In this document: in pieces, positions 1,812 through 7,570 of the stretch
Layout of the letters: each line of letters opens with the position of its first letter
Numbering within the stretch: the stretch's first letter is position 1
NCBI GenBank assembly: GCA_903930515.1
Contig: CAIYYW010000384.1
Location: 1-8,352 of the forward strand
Direction of reading: 5' to 3'
From: an uncultured delta proteobacterium
GTDB lineage: Bacteria > RBG-13-61-14 > DRUE01
DNA: 8,352 nucleotides
Translations under genes and position numbers: made by a program
Notes under the pieces: generated by a model
What the model was told of the DNA's origin: nothing
The model's input: the letters and a program-made list of their open reading frames with translations, nothing else
Databases searched by the model: none

Positions 1812-3878
1812 TTAAGGCAACGAATTCAAAATAATTTCGCTCAATATTTCCGCAAGATGTCTGACCCTGACCGGATTGCCTTGAGCCTGGCATCCGCCCC
1901 TGATCTGCATCAGGCAGCCCGGGCAGTCAAGGGCGACCAGACCGGGGCTGGATTCCCGGATGGCGGCTAGCTTTTCCGAAAGCAGGGCCTGGGAGAGTTC
2001 GGGATGATCCATAGAGAAACTTCCGGCAAAGCCGCAGCAGGAATCCGCGTTGGGCAGTTCAATAAAATTTTCTCCGGCAATAAGTTTAAGGATTTCCCGG
2101 GAGGCCTCGCCGGCCTGGAGATGATGTTTTTGATGACAGGACTCGTGATATGCAAGCCGCAGGTTTGACTTTTTATTTGCCACTAATTCCTTTACCTGCT
2201 CCAACTCTTTTTCAAAAATGAACCTGCTGAAATTGGACACCATAACCCGGCCCCCATTTTTATCTCCGGCTGATTGGAGCATTGTGGCGCAAGTCGGGCA
2301 GAGCGTGATCACCAAATCGTCAGGCAAAATTTTTCCCGTCACCGCGGCTAAGGCCTTGTCCCCGGCTTCTTTAAATCCCGCGTTCCTTGCCGGGAATCCG
2401 CAGCATCCGGCCCGAATCAGATCCACCCGGTAGCCGAGCCTGTCCAAAACTCCTGCCGCGGCAATCCCGATCTCCGGATAAAAATGCTCAATTAAACAGC
2501 CGGCGAATATTTTTACTTTCCCTTTTCCCCCTTTAAGCTTGTCATCCTTTAAGCTTTCAAACTTTTCCGTGAACGGGACCGCGGCCGGAGCAGGCAAGAC
2601 CCGGAAGCCCGTATATTTGTTCAGCGGCCAGGGCAATTCCCGGGCGAATCCTTCGCTGGTCTTGATCACCGGCCTGGCAGTCCGGGCCAGCGCAAAAACT
2701 TTTTGCTGAGCGCCCGGATTCGCGATGATTTCGTCAAAGATCATTCCTTTCAAGAACGGTTTTCCCAATTCCCGGTTCAGCTTCTCCCGAAGCGCCACGA
2801 TCAAATCCGAGATCGGAATTTTGACCGCGCAGATCTCATCGCACCTTCGGCAATTCAAGCAAAGAGACGCCAGGTCCCTGGAAGGTTCCAGTCCGTTGAT
2901 CCAGGCCGTGAGCAAAGCGCCGATCCCGCCCATATAAATATGCGCAAATTGCTTCCCGCCCAGGAGCCGGTACACCGGACAGATATTCAAACAGGCCGAG
3001 CATTTGATGCAGCGGGAAACCTCTTTGAAAACCGGGTCAGTCATCATTTCCGAGCGGTGGTTGTCAACCAGGATGATGTATTGGCCGGAGCGGTGCGGCC
3101 CGGCGATGAAAGACACATAACTGGTGATCGCCTGCCCGGTGGCGTTTTTCGGAAGCATCCGGAGCAAGGCCAGGGCCTCGCGCAAGGAGGGATATATTTT
3201 CTCCATACTCGCGAATACGATATGCACGGGCGGAATGGTTGAGACCAGTCTCCCGTTCCCCTCATTGGTCACCATCATCATCGCGCCAAGGTCCGCGATC
3301 AGGGCGTTGGCCCCGGTCAGTCCCGCGCCCGCCTTGAAAATCTCCTTCCGCAATTCCTCCCGCGCGGTCCGGACCAGGGTTTGGATGTCAGCCGGAATCA
3401 CCCTTCCCAATTTCTTGGAAAAAATTTCAGCCACATCCTTGCGGGTCAGATGGATGGCCGGCATCACCATATGGGTCGGATGATCGCAATCCAACTGGAT
3501 GATCCATTCGCCCAGGTCGGTCTCGCGGACGGTGATGCCGTTCTCCAAAAGAAAATCATTGAGCCTGGTCTCCTCGCTCACCATTGATTTGGACTTGACC
3601 AGGGTCTTCACCCGATGCCGCTGAAGGATTTCCAAAACCGCCCGGTTCGCCGCGGCGCTGTCCTTCGCAAGAATCACCTTACTCCCGCGCTTCTCAGCCT
3701 GCTCTATAAATTGCGCGACCAGTTCCCGGTTCTTCTCCAGCGCCCGGTCCCGTATTTCCGCAAGCTCGGACCGGAGCTTTTCAAAGTCCAGTCCGGCAAA
3801 GGCCTTCTCGCGGCTGCGAAAATAATTCGCGCTGAAATGGTCCAGCACCTGCTTCAGGTATGGATCAATCTTTTTCAA
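1812..3878 (-). CDS. LutB-LutA fusion: LUD / 2x[4Fe-4S] / CCG-domain lactate oxidation protein
   Basis: This 688-residue protein joins two subunits of the LutABC (LldEFG) 2-hydroxyacid oxidation system, which are separate genes in Bacillus. The N-terminal half is LutB-like: a LUD domain (about 60-285, with NALIADLGAMM and VSTIPPVHIVF), then two ferredoxin-type CxxCxxCxxxC clusters (C290/293/296/300 and C340/343/346/350). The C-terminal half (about 455-688) is LutA-like, with two cysteine-rich CCG repeats. The first has C461, CCGFP at 492-496 and CPTC at 527-530. The second has HESCH around C581, CCGF at 614-617 and CPGC at 652-655. No signal peptide or membrane segment is visible, so it is probably cytoplasmic. 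It is the last operon gene. The start is TTG, inside the 4-nt overlap TTGA with the stop of the LutC-like gene. A similar fused layout occurs, as I recall, in Desulfovibrio. L-lactate is the textbook substrate; another 2-hydroxyacid is possible. Confidence 0.9.
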   Translation of the reverse strand: MKKIDPYLKQVLDHFSANYFRSREKAFAGLDFEKLRSELAEIRDRALEKNRELVAQFIEQAEKRGSKVILAKDSAAANRAVLEILQRHRVKTLVKSKSMVSEETRLNDFLLENGITVRETDLGEWIIQLDCDHPTHMVMPAIHLTRKDVAEIFSKKLGRVIPADIQTLVRTAREELRKEIFKAGAGLTGANALIADLGAMMMVTNEGNGRLVSTIPPVHIVFASMEKIYPSLREALALLRMLPKNATGQAITSYVSFIAGPHRSGQYIILVDNHRSEMMTDPVFKEVSRCIKCSACLNICPVYRLLGGKQFAHIYMGGIGALLTAWINGLEPSRDLASLCLNCRRCDEICAVKIPISDLIVALREKLNRELGKPFLKGMIFDEIIANPGAQQKVFALARTARPVIKTSEGFARELPWPLNKYTGFRVLPAPAAVPFTEKFESLKDDKLKGGKGKVKIFAGCLIEHFYPEIGIAAAGVLDRLGYRVDLIRAGCCGFPARNAGFKEAGDKALAAVTGKILPDDLVITLCPTCATMLQSAGDKNGGRVMVSNFSRFIFEKELEQVKELVANKKSNLRLAYHESCHQKHHLQAGEASREILKLIAGENFIELPNADSCCGFAGSFSMDHPELSQALLSEKLAAIRESSPGLVALDCPGCLMQIRGGCQAQGNPVRVRHLAEILSEIILNSLP

Positions 3879-4411
3879 CGGAACCCCTCGTCAATCAGCA
3901 GGATCAGGAACTCGGCCGGGCCGTGCACTCCGATCTGGAGCTCGCATTCTATATCCGCGGTCCGGCTCGGCCCGCTGATCAGGGCAACCTGACGGCCTTG
4001 ACCGAGATGCCTTGAAAGATCGCCCGCAATCGCTTCCGCGTCCGGCACGATCCGTTTGGATTCCAGCAGGCACAAACAAATTCCCGGCAATACCCCCGGC
4101 AGCTTGTCCAGATCGTCCTGATAAAACTGCGCCACGGTCCCGGTCTCGGAAATCCCGTAATCCGCGAAAATAATTCCCGCCTCCGCCTTTTCCGCATCGG
4201 CAAGGTTTTGGAATTCCAGGATCGGGAATTTTCCGGACCCTCCGAAATATGGCTCAAGCTTTTTGCCGATCAGGACATTTTTGATTTCATTCTTCCGGAT
4301 AAAATCCGCGAGATATTTTTCGGCATCCTTGAAAGTCGCCAACCGCTCAACCCTGGCGCCGAGCGCGACGGCCTTCGCGGCAAATTCCCGGACAATATTC
4401 TCGCTCACCAT
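3875..4411 (-). CDS. lutC: LutC-like LUD-domain protein
   Basis: This 178-residue protein is nearly all a single LUD domain, the hallmark of LutC/LldG, the small third subunit of the LutABC lactate oxidation complex. Visible family motifs are ADYGISETGTV (83-93), SGPSRTADIE (146-155) and GVHGP (161-165) near the C-terminus, in the normal order and spacing. It has no metal-binding cysteine cluster, as expected for LutC. The ATG overlaps the end of the aldolase gene by 7 nt. A GTG one codon later would make a 4-nt GTGA overlap and is an equally possible start. The purine-rich stretch upstream contains only a weak Shine-Dalgarno, so translation probably depends on ribosomes arriving from the aldolase gene. 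The lutC symbol is by family and position; the substrate is not proved. Confidence 0.85.
   Translation of the reverse strand: MVSENIVREFAAKAVALGARVERLATFKDAEKYLADFIRKNEIKNVLIGKKLEPYFGGSGKFPILEFQNLADAEKAEAGIIFADYGISETGTVAQFYQDDLDKLPGVLPGICLCLLESKRIVPDAEAIAGDLSRHLGQGRQVALISGPSRTADIECELQIGVHGPAEFLILLIDEGFR
3884..3889 (-). promoter_or_regulatory. Ribosome-binding site for the TTG start of the LutB-LutA gene
   Basis: On the minus strand GAGGGG (3889-3884) sits 5 nt before the TTG at 3878-3876, and the TGA of the upstream gene overlaps that TTG. The strong site inside the end of the preceding coding region supports the unusual TTG start and implies coupled translation. Confidence 0.7.
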
Positions 4412-5721
4412 TTCTTTGCTTTCTTCGGCTCCATCTTGCTCAGGTCCAGCCCGCGCTCAAACGCTCCGATCCGGTACAGGCATATTTCCCGGACCGAGGA
4501 CGGATGATGGAGCGCTTCGGAGACGCTTTGCGCGCCCACCGCCCAGACTCCTCCTCCCCGCACAATCACCACTTTGTAATCGTGGAGAAGCCGGATCAAT
4601 TCCCCCAACTCAAATTTCGGGGGCAGAATCGGGATCACCAAATAAAGAAAACTTCCCTCCGCGTCAACCGGGACCATCCGCTCCGGAAGACCGCGCTCGC
4701 CCGGGGCGATGAAATGACTGAGCGCCTCGGCCTCCGGAATATAGCAGTGCATTATGGTCTGAAAATCGCTCTCCGCGTAAATCGCGCGGTGGATCGCGAG
4801 TTCCCGGTCCTTGCCGTCATCGGAAAGCAAAAGCTCCAGCAAAGGCCCGCCCAGCTCTCTCGGCATCGCGGCCTTGGGCGCGTAGAACATTGTCCGCACT
4901 CCGCGCAGCGAGATTGACCCGGTGTAGAACGGGGAGAGCCGCGATTCAAAAATCCGCGCCCCGGCCTTGCGGAACTCTTTGGCCAGTTCCTCATCATCCG
5001 CGAAATCAGCCGCCTGGTCTCCCTCCACTTGATAGTCCGGGAGCGGATGCGAAAAATATTCAGCCGGATTTTCTTGGATGAGCTTGCGCAACTTTTCTAT
5101 GTCCACCTTGAGCTTGCGGCATAGGTTCACGATGTAACCGGAGTTATTGGCGATGCAGAGCAGGAAAAAGGCTTCCTGGATGTTCCGGCCCTTGGCGAAC
5201 GCGCCGTGTCCCTGGATGGAAGTCACCGGATGGTCCTTGAGCCGGGCCGGAATTTTTTCCGTCATCTCCGGAGACCCGCTCGGGACCGCGAACCAGTCCA
5301 CCGGGACTTCACCCTTCAAATAGCGCCACCCGAGCGGATCAATCGGCACAAAACTTTCCGGCTGCGCCGGCTTGTCCAGATCGTCCAGGGTGGCGATGGT
5401 CAGCTCCTTGTTATGGCCGTGCATGGACGCGCTCACGCCCGGGAGGGAAAGTATTTTCGCGTGGATGTCGGTTTCGGAGGACGCCTTGTAGTATCCGAAA
5501 TCGGCCCGGTCAATCGCGGGCAGGCAAATCTGGTCCGGCTCCAAATCCCCCTTCTGGCTCCCGGTCGCGGTGATCGCCATCCGGTCTTGCCCCTTCTCGT
5601 CCTTTAACCGCGTCGCGATATTTCCGCTGTGGCTGTCTTCAATGTCATAAGTCAGCGCGGCCTTCCCCACCGCCTGATACAGCCGGATCAGTTCCTCGCT
5701 CTTCTTCCACTTGTCGCTCAT
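4405..5721 (-). CDS. Tandem-domain class II aldolase/adducin family protein
   Basis: Class II aldolases of this family (fuculose-1-phosphate, rhamnulose-1-phosphate and ribulose-phosphate enzymes) use a zinc ion to cleave or epimerise ketose phosphates. This 438-residue protein holds two copies of a fold that is usually about 215 residues and single. Domain 1 (about 8-205) looks catalytic: SGN at 32-34, TGS at 53-55, acid/base Glu E83 in SSETDIH, and zinc ligands H101 and H103 (HGH) and H172 (GHGAFAKG). Domain 2 (about 245-425) is degenerate: it has YTGSIS in place of the phosphate loop and keeps E307 and H325, but the second His position is Y327 and the third His motif reads RGGG (388-391). 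It follows AOR by one base, with AGGA (5734-5731) as a modest ribosome-binding site, and overlaps the LutC-like gene. An epimerase or another aldehyde-releasing role is possible; the substrate cannot be read from sequence. Confidence 0.85.
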   Translation of the reverse strand: MSDKWKKSEELIRLYQAVGKAALTYDIEDSHSGNIATRLKDEKGQDRMAITATGSQKGDLEPDQICLPAIDRADFGYYKASSETDIHAKILSLPGVSASMHGHNKELTIATLDDLDKPAQPESFVPIDPLGWRYLKGEVPVDWFAVPSGSPEMTEKIPARLKDHPVTSIQGHGAFAKGRNIQEAFFLLCIANNSGYIVNLCRKLKVDIEKLRKLIQENPAEYFSHPLPDYQVEGDQAADFADDEELAKEFRKAGARIFESRLSPFYTGSISLRGVRTMFYAPKAAMPRELGGPLLELLLSDDGKDRELAIHRAIYAESDFQTIMHCYIPEAEALSHFIAPGERGLPERMVPVDAEGSFLYLVIPILPPKFELGELIRLLHDYKVVIVRGGGVWAVGAQSVSEALHHPSSVREICLYRIGAFERGLDLSKMEPKKAKKW

Positions 5722-5722
5722 T

Positions 5723-7570
5723 TTATTTCATCCTGTCGGTGCCAGGGACTTTCGTCCCGAAAAGGGCGGCAATGGTCTCCCCCTTCGGCCTGCCCTGCCC
5801 GTCCCATCCGCGCGCCTCGTAATAATCAGAGCGCATCCGCTCCATCGTTTCCTTGCTCACCACCCGCTCTTTACCGCCGACGATGATCGGCTCCTTGCTG
5901 AACCGCTCCGGCAAGGTGTCATCTTCCGCGGTCGCTCCCGCGGCCAGATTGAAGATCCGCTCCAGGCTGGCGATCCGGTTCGCGATCTGGTCCAGTTTCT
6001 TGGTGGAAAAATCCAATCCGGTGGCGCCGCTCGCCATCCTGGCCCAGGGGTCGGTTGAGAAGGCGAACCCGGTAAACCGGCAGATCCCCAAACTGTCCTG
6101 CAAAATACCCAGGTTCTGCAAATTCCGCACCGCAACCGCGGCCTGCTGGAGAGAGAAGCGCGGGATTTCCCTGGCGCCCCCGAAAAACGCGAGCGAGACC
6201 GCGTATCCGCCGCGAAGGTGGCAGGCCCCGGTCGGCGAAGTCATATACCCGAGCGCCTGGGTGAAGGATGAGCGCGGATCGTAAGCGGGAATCTCCAGGC
6301 CTTTGACGCTCATAGACAATTCCGGCTGCTCATAAAATTTCGCCATCCGCAACGACCCTTCGGCCAACTGGTCGCCGATCCCCTTCCGGAACGCGATCAT
6401 CTCCGCCAGCTTTTCCAGGACCGCGGCGTTTCCGAACCGGAGCTCCATCCCGCCGGTGTCATCTTTATTGAGCGCTCCTTTTTCAAACAGCTCCATCGCG
6501 CAGGCAATCGTCCCGCCCAGGCTCATCGTGTCCATCCCCAGCTCGTTGCAAAGGTAATTCGCCTTGGCGATCGCCTCCAAATCGTAGATCCCGCATTGCG
6601 GCCCCATCATAATCATAGTCTCGTATTCCGGGCCTTCTCCTTTTTTTCCGCCGACTTGCGTGTGCCGTTGACAGGCGAGCGGACAGCGGAAACAAGCCCC
6701 GGCCTTGTCCAAAATTTTGTCGCGCAGGGCCTCGCCGGAAACCCGGTCCAGGTCTTCCTCTGAGTGAGTCACATCCTGAAAATTCTTGCGCGGGAGCATA
6801 TCAATAATGGCGATCAACTTGATCAATCCCGCGGTTCCCAGCTCCTTGAGCAGACGCTTGGTAATGGGCGCCTGCCGGAGAAGGTATTGGGCCTGGTCCA
6901 ATCCTGATTGATACCGCTCCTGGTCCTGAACCGCGATCTTTTCCTTGCCCGAGACCACGACCGCTTTCAGGTTCTTGCTCCCCCAGACCGCGCCCGGGCC
7001 GGAGCGGCCATAGGCCCGATTCTTGTCGTTCATCACCGCGGCAAACCTGACCCGGTTCTCTCCGGCCGGGCCGATGCAAAGAATTTTCCTGCCGGGTTTG
7101 CCTTCGCTGAGCCGGTCGGTGGTCTCGGGAACATTCAGTCCCCAAAGTTCCCGGGCCGGAACGATTTCAACTTTATCCGGCCGGACCTCAACCACCACCG
7201 GCTCTTTCGCTTTGCCCTTGATCACCAGGGCGTCATAGCCGGTTGCCTTGAAAACAGCCGCCCAACTTCCGCCGGAATTGGAGCTGCCGATGATGCCGGT
7301 GAGCGGGCTTTTGAAAACCAGGTGCCCGCGGCAGGCCGTGGGAGCGTTGGTGCCGAGCAAAGGAGAAGTCGCGATCACCATCACATTGTCCGGCCCGAGC
7401 GGATCGCATTGGGGATCAACGGAGTCAAAAAATAATTTGGACGCGAGACCGCGCCCGCCCAAATAGTCCGCGGCCATTCGCGGGTCAAGTTCCTTGTTCG
7501 CAACCCTGCCCGAGCTTAAATCTATCTCCAGTATTTTTCCGTGATAGCCGAAACCGGATATGTCGGTCAT
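5723..7570 (-). CDS. aor: Tungsten-type aldehyde:ferredoxin oxidoreductase
   Basis: This cytoplasmic enzyme oxidises aldehydes to carboxylic acids, or the reverse, and transfers two electrons to ferredoxin. It uses a bis-tungstopterin and one [4Fe-4S] cluster. The 615-residue length matches Pyrococcus furiosus AOR (605). The N-terminal domain carries YLGGRGLASK (37-46) and the pterin-binding region (TSPLLGTNAPTACRG, SGGSW around 99-103). The cluster ligands are C293, C296 and C300 (CFRCPLAC) plus C497 (LGICRF), in the same pattern as the four cysteines of the Pyrococcus enzyme. E315 in GPEYET and H451 in TGACHLRGG match the active-site Glu and His known there, and AYDPR is at 429-433. It is the first gene of the operon, with AAGGGGA (7584-7578) 7 nt before the ATG. 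No MoaD-like or ferredoxin gene adjoins it. Formaldehyde- or glyceraldehyde-3-phosphate-type paralogues are alternatives; the neighbouring aldolase favours a short hydroxyaldehyde. Confidence 0.95.
   Translation of the reverse strand: MTDISGFGYHGKILEIDLSSGRVANKELDPRMAADYLGGRGLASKLFFDSVDPQCDPLGPDNVMVIATSPLLGTNAPTACRGHLVFKSPLTGIIGSSNSGGSWAAVFKATGYDALVIKGKAKEPVVVEVRPDKVEIVPARELWGLNVPETTDRLSEGKPGRKILCIGPAGENRVRFAAVMNDKNRAYGRSGPGAVWGSKNLKAVVVSGKEKIAVQDQERYQSGLDQAQYLLRQAPITKRLLKELGTAGLIKLIAIIDMLPRKNFQDVTHSEEDLDRVSGEALRDKILDKAGACFRCPLACQRHTQVGGKKGEGPEYETMIMMGPQCGIYDLEAIAKANYLCNELGMDTMSLGGTIACAMELFEKGALNKDDTGGMELRFGNAAVLEKLAEMIAFRKGIGDQLAEGSLRMAKFYEQPELSMSVKGLEIPAYDPRSSFTQALGYMTSPTGACHLRGGYAVSLAFFGGAREIPRFSLQQAAVAVRNLQNLGILQDSLGICRFTGFAFSTDPWARMASGATGLDFSTKKLDQIANRIASLERIFNLAAGATAEDDTLPERFSKEPIIVGGKERVVSKETMERMRSDYYEARGWDGQGRPKGETIAALFGTKVPGTDRMK

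Follow-up and report, generated by a model that had tools for sequence, protein, structure and literature searches.

The window analysed here is a whole contig of 8352 bases (G000:C384) from the genome G000, and it carries four closely spaced genes that encode an aldehyde:ferredoxin oxidoreductase (AOR), a class II aldolase with two aldolase domains in tandem (ALD), the small protein LutC, and a fused LutB-LutA protein resembling the lactate dehydrogenase subunit LdhH. This operon quite probably represents the lower half of an anaerobic pathway for L-rhamnose catabolism. In the proposed route, RhaI and RhaB, whose genes lie elsewhere in G000 but directly upstream in G001 (a genome of the same genus), would convert L-rhamnose to L-rhamnulose-1-phosphate; ALD would cleave this into dihydroxyacetone phosphate (DHAP) and L-lactaldehyde; the stand-alone AOR would oxidise L-lactaldehyde to L-lactate, passing two electrons onto ferredoxin; and LutC together with the fused LdhH would take L-lactate to pyruvate. 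Both three-carbon halves of rhamnose would in this way reach pyruvate, with no carbon lost as 1,2-propanediol. For the toxic lactaldehyde that arises from the plant sugar L-rhamnose, such a route would replace either its loss as propanediol or the usual dehydrogenase linked to nicotinamide adenine dinucleotide (NAD). Because all of the genomes studied are metagenome bins, a gene that was not found may lie in an unrecovered part of its genome.

Gene identities and conserved order

Four open reading frames (ORFs) on the minus strand follow one another in the order AOR, ALD, LutC and LutB-LutA fusion, with 1 free base between AOR and ALD (+1), a 7-nt overlap between ALD and LutC (-7), and a 4-nt overlap between LutC and the fusion (-4). 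The gene assignments and junctions, as given in a first-pass annotation of this DNA, were all reproduced by the ORF list of the window and by family searches. That annotation had made its proposal depend on conservation of the gene order. This was found for AOR and ALD, which lie side by side in the same orientation at 30 of the 33 testable loci (those with both sides visible) from Candidatus Aminicenantes and the window lineage, but the Lut part is kept in a subset of loci only. The AOR-ALD pair persists down to 30-36% aldolase identity (L150-L152), and in the genome G002 (L040) the order of the two genes is swapped and they are still coupled.

The window AOR is a full-length protein with both family domains (AFOR_N, 260 bits; AFOR_C, 420 bits), and the solved structures nearest to it are AORs of the Pyrococcus furiosus type (E 1e-141 to 1e-143), the P. 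furiosus enzyme 1aor aligning with it over residues 7-598 (E 3e-141). The active-site residues E317 and H451 and the fourth iron-sulphur cysteine, C497, are invariant across all 35 aligned AORs; their counterparts, as taken from the alignment, are presumably Glu313, His448 and Cys494 of the P. furiosus AOR. The two enzymes thus have in common the full-length AFOR architecture and the conserved ligands Glu, His and Cys, whereas only the window AOR belongs to a dedicated operon with a sugar-phosphate aldolase. Phylogenetically, the ALD-linked AORs form a single clade (100/98 support) that excludes the seven further AORs taken from the same genome groups, and the genomes that carry the operon AOR hold one to five further AORs. 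The pairing is therefore an inherited trait of one particular AOR rather than that of a random neighbour. No gene for an NAD-coupling subunit neighbours the window AOR, and because of this, and of its resemblance to the stand-alone P. furiosus AOR, ferredoxin is the likely electron acceptor. Tungstopterin genes had been suggested as something to look for in the same genome, and MoaC was indeed found in G000, as well as in G001 and G002, which is consistent with, and no more than consistent with, a tungstopterin-bound AOR. Many Aminicenantes loci have a gene for a ThiS-domain protein immediately before AOR, an arrangement compatible with the cofactor. This gene takes the form of a fused NTPase_1-ThiS gene, split at some loci (L012:6943-7728, L006, L010, L011, L014, L016, L138, L142-L146 and L148), and at L149 it precedes the aldolase, AOR not being adjacent; its product is possibly a sulphur carrier for the pterin cofactor, dedicated to this AOR.

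ALD is a tandem duplication in which an intact FucA-type N-terminal domain is followed by a degenerate C-terminal one. In the predicted structure (predicted local distance difference test score 79.7; predicted template modelling score 0.86), the N-domain adopts the FucA fold (Z 22.8, 2.1 Å over 187 residues against 2fk5), and in the alignment its catalytic glutamate (E83) and zinc-ligand histidines (H101, H103 and H172) are invariant in 19 of 19 relatives. A single hhalign comparison of the two domains gave an E value of 0.00018. Two of the three metal-binding histidines are lost in the C-domain, where Y327 stands opposite H103 and a glycine opposite H172; this domain is probably structural, and it may help to form the contact surface between subunits, where class II aldolases assemble their active sites. 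Among NCBIfam hits at E 0.001, ALD matched no RhaD family model (PRK03634-type), and the same database search returned no match to the RhaE/RhaEW model TIGR02632. Identity with RhaE was ruled out, a profile comparison with two RhaE proteins having given a probability of 2% alongside the missing family-model match. That ALD works like RhaD is a prediction from its genomic context.

The composition of the Lut module, a small LUD protein followed by a fused large subunit with the domain order LUD-4Fe4S-CCG-CCG, is that of LldGH/LdhH. The best model for the fusion was LdhH (NF045670) with 751.5 bits, narrowly missing the cut-off of 800, and the next best model reached 346. The protein is therefore read as a divergent relative of LdhH, predicted to work like it. 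In Desulfovibrio vulgaris, DVU3032-DVU3033 is the L-lactate dehydrogenase LldG/LldH, in which a LutB-LutA fusion accompanies a small LUD protein (PMC4481167); the window pair has the same make-up, but follows an aldolase and an AOR, whereas DVU3032-DVU3033 sits in a lactate utilisation operon. The stereochemistry is also consistent, since cleavage of rhamnulose-1-phosphate gives L-lactaldehyde, hence L-lactate, and LldGH is an L-lactate enzyme. As a side observation, a gene of the prismane/hybrid-cluster family lies between LutC and LdhH in Ca. Saccharicenans (L018:10028-11677; L013:12224-13873).

Table 1. Positions of the operon genes and of the second aldolase domain in the window
Feature	Positions	Strand	Description
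AOR, aldehyde:ferredoxin oxidoreductase	5723..7570	-	615 aa; PF02730 and PF01314; predicted to convert L-lactaldehyde to L-lactate with reduction of ferredoxin
ALD, tandem-domain class II aldolase	4405..5721	-	438 aa; PF00596 matched in two stretches; predicted L-rhamnulose-1-phosphate aldolase
ALD C-terminal domain (about residues 240-438), a second, degenerate aldolase domain	4408..5004	-	hhalign of N- against C-domain
LutC/LldG-like LUD-domain protein	3875..4411	-	178 aa; PF02589; predicted small subunit of L-lactate dehydrogenase
LdhH/LldH-like LutB (LUD and 4Fe-4S) fused to LutA (two CCG domains)	1812..3878	-	688 aa, TTG start; predicted to convert L-lactate to pyruvate

L-Rhamnose genes around the aldolase

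The first-pass annotation had proposed a chain in which a ketose-1-phosphate aldolase releases a hydroxyaldehyde that AOR oxidises to a 2-hydroxyacid and the Lut module to pyruvate, and had left the choice between a 6-deoxysugar and a source of glycolaldehyde undecided. Genomic context supports this chain, the activities being predicted, and settles the choice towards L-rhamnose and L-lactaldehyde. In G001, the genes RhaI, RhaB, AOR and ALD are contiguous on one contig (locus L039); its RhaB passes the rhamnulokinase model TIGR02627 (531.3 against a cut-off of 527.95), whilst the nearest model for its RhaI is that of the rhizobial L-rhamnose isomerase, at a score under the cut-off (535.2 against 646.75). 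The isomerase and kinase genes that had been suggested for a search of the window genome itself were also found, as a RhaI-RhaB pair on contig C43 of G000. Joining the G001 contigs C40 and C55 into one continuous operon was rejected, as they do not overlap exactly, C55 diverging over its first ~158 bases; the six-gene set RhaI-RhaB-AOR-ALD-LutC-LdhH is thus a composite of two observations, made on two G001 contigs.

In Aminicenantes the context is built differently. RhaI was not found in any of the three genomes tested, and RhaA, an isomerase unrelated to RhaI, is present in 7 of 7. RhaA genes scoring over the TIGR01748 cut-off flank ALD in five loci (L003, L007, L009, L017 and L019), and in three loci RhaB-RhaA pairs lie near a GH78 alpha-L-rhamnosidase. 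That two unrelated isomerase families converge on one aldolase provides strong context for L-rhamnulose-1-phosphate as its substrate. In two RhaA-bearing genomes (G062 and G064) ALD is the sole class II aldolase found, and the other Aminicenantes genomes tested hold ALD and one other. RhaEW scoring over its cut-off was found in none of the window-lineage or Aminicenantes genomes searched, the listed matches covering the dehydrogenase region only, below the cut-off.

Points against the pathway and competing explanations

Several observations weigh against a rhamnose pathway built on these genes. The sequence of the AOR does not reveal its specificity, so its substrate is read from the genomic context. 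In the window genome, RhaI and RhaB both score under their equivalog cut-offs (551.5 against 646.75 bits and 506.1 against 527.95, respectively) and lie on a different contig from the window, and contig C272 of G000 holds a FucA-like aldolase and an FGGY kinase that make a second deoxysugar candidate. Adjacency to the Lut genes is a minority condition, with LutC at most 250 bp away in 8 loci and LutC-LdhH next in line in 6, and three loci (L007, L017 and L149) have the aldolase with no AOR adjacent. MoaC was not found in four of the eight Acidobacteriota genomes tested, possibly incomplete bins. The C272 locus (L042, G000:C272:1-3964) comprises the FucA-like aldolase, a kinase of the FGGY family that resembles autoinducer-2 kinase, and an apparent D-isomer 2-hydroxyacid dehydrogenase; at L149 (9194-11768), a divergent tandem aldolase is followed by an Nramp-type transporter.

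The most serious competitor holds that ALD mainly cleaves another ketose-1-phosphate (L-fuculose-1-phosphate, ribulose-1-phosphate or 5-deoxyribulose-1-phosphate), with AOR oxidising fucose-derived L-lactaldehyde, glycolaldehyde or acetaldehyde. Class II aldolases are often promiscuous, the best structural matches of the ALD N-domain are FucA proteins, 6btd (a Bacillus thuringiensis aldolase of a radical-SAM by-product route) also ranks high, and the divergent loci L150-L152 retain AOR-ALD with no rhamnose gene near. This explanation is nevertheless unlikely, since isomerase, kinase and rhamnosidase genes indicate rhamnose in two lineages, LutC/LdhH resembles an L-lactate and not a glycolate dehydrogenase, and strong matches to PF02952 (fucose-isomerase-like) mostly adjoin AraD-like aldolases, as in arabinose clusters. 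Arabinose and fucose clusters were themselves considered as a source of the substrate and set aside: on G000:C386 the class II aldolase is AraD-like and the adjoining PF02952 isomerase is not a FucI match.

It would be more surprising still if AOR were a general aldehyde detoxifier co-transcribed by chance, with an alcohol dehydrogenase encoded elsewhere reducing lactaldehyde to 1,2-propanediol and the Lut proteins serving external lactate. AORs of the P. furiosus type are broad in substrate and the Lut linkage is patchy, both of which would suit such a role, but the operon AOR belongs to a distinct clade and tracks the aldolase through deep divergence and a swap of gene order, which makes this improbable. 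Lastly, at low potential AORs are able to work in the opposite direction, the reactions of class II aldolases are reversible, and the chain could in principle be reversed: reduced ferredoxin would then drive the reduction of lactate to lactaldehyde by AOR, and the aldolase would build a ketose phosphate. The neighbouring genes for rhamnose catabolism (isomerase, kinase and rhamnosidase), and a Lut module next to AOR that suits oxidation, make this reversal very improbable indeed; L-rhamnose breakdown, with the flow inferred to run from sugar to pyruvate, is the reading preferred here.

Known pathways, significance and distribution

The closest known counterpart is the pathway with RhaEW, a bifunctional rhamnulose-1-phosphate aldolase/lactaldehyde dehydrogenase (Rodionova et al. 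2013, PMC3870299), which performs the same conversion of L-rhamnulose-1-phosphate to DHAP and L-lactaldehyde, and then to L-lactate, as proposed here. There RhaE is joined to the NAD-dependent dehydrogenase RhaW in one protein, whereas the window has a separate AOR and an aldolase that is not RhaE. In some RhaEW-bearing bacteria, the rhamnose regulon includes lldEFG (LutABC), which extends the route to pyruvate (PMC3870299), and this part of the pathway is thus already precedented. The Escherichia coli RhaD/FucA pathway (with AldA or FucO) has the class II zinc aldolase fold and chemistry in common with the window, but its aldolase has a single domain, as opposed to the tandem one, and lactaldehyde is handled by NAD enzymes (in anaerobic fermenters it is reduced to propanediol). 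What would be new is the use of an AOR as the lactaldehyde-oxidising step and, for the cleavage of rhamnulose-1-phosphate, a third option beside RhaD and RhaE in the form of a tandem-domain aldolase. No open-access paper was found that joins lactaldehyde, AOR and rhamnose, class II aldolase and AOR, or Aminicenantes and AOR, although subscription papers may do so.

Anaerobic rhamnose fermenters of the Caldicellulosiruptor type spend half of their reduced carriers on the conversion of lactaldehyde to 1,2-propanediol, and a review points out that diverting lactaldehyde to acetate would lift the H2 yield from 1 to 5 per rhamnose, and proposes this as a goal for engineering (PMC4187192). The operon would be a natural counterpart of that engineering target in uncultured anaerobes (Aminicenantes and the window lineage). 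It would also show what one clade of AORs, enzymes whose substrates are usually unknown, does in the cell, and supply a new aldolase family for the annotation of rhamnose catabolism. A bolder suggestion, which we hold only tentatively and consider rather doubtful, is that ALD forms a third, unrecognised family of L-rhamnulose-1-phosphate aldolases that is physically paired with its dedicated AOR and hands lactaldehyde over directly. If true, such a hand-over would amount to a natural oxidation of rhamnose to acetate in these anaerobes that gains additional electrons on ferredoxin and avoids 1,2-propanediol.

Within the genomes searched, the tandem-domain aldolase family is confined to Acidobacteriota and the window lineage. 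Relatives of ALD in GTDB genomes belong to Ca. Aminicenantes/Acidobacteriota and to one bin labelled delta proteobacterium, whose locus is shared with G001. At a threshold of 1e-60 they occur in 18 of 297 Acidobacteriota genomes, and at 1e-30 no tandem-domain aldolase was found outside the window lineage (G000, its genus mate and its order mate) among 386 genomes, mostly of other phyla. The same-genus genome (L020/L041) was deposited as an uncultured delta proteobacterium, with one order mate as the sole relative in the scan; this assignment may be mistaken, and the group to which the genome belongs may be small and poorly sampled. As regards neighbouring genes, the operon in the window has a divergent malQ on one side and a convergent gene for dihydrolipoamide dehydrogenase on the other, a gene for a corrinoid-binding protein adjoins the aldolase in two Aminicenantes loci (L078:8755-9423; L008:11319-12029), and a gene of the URO-D family lies near the aldolase in L003.

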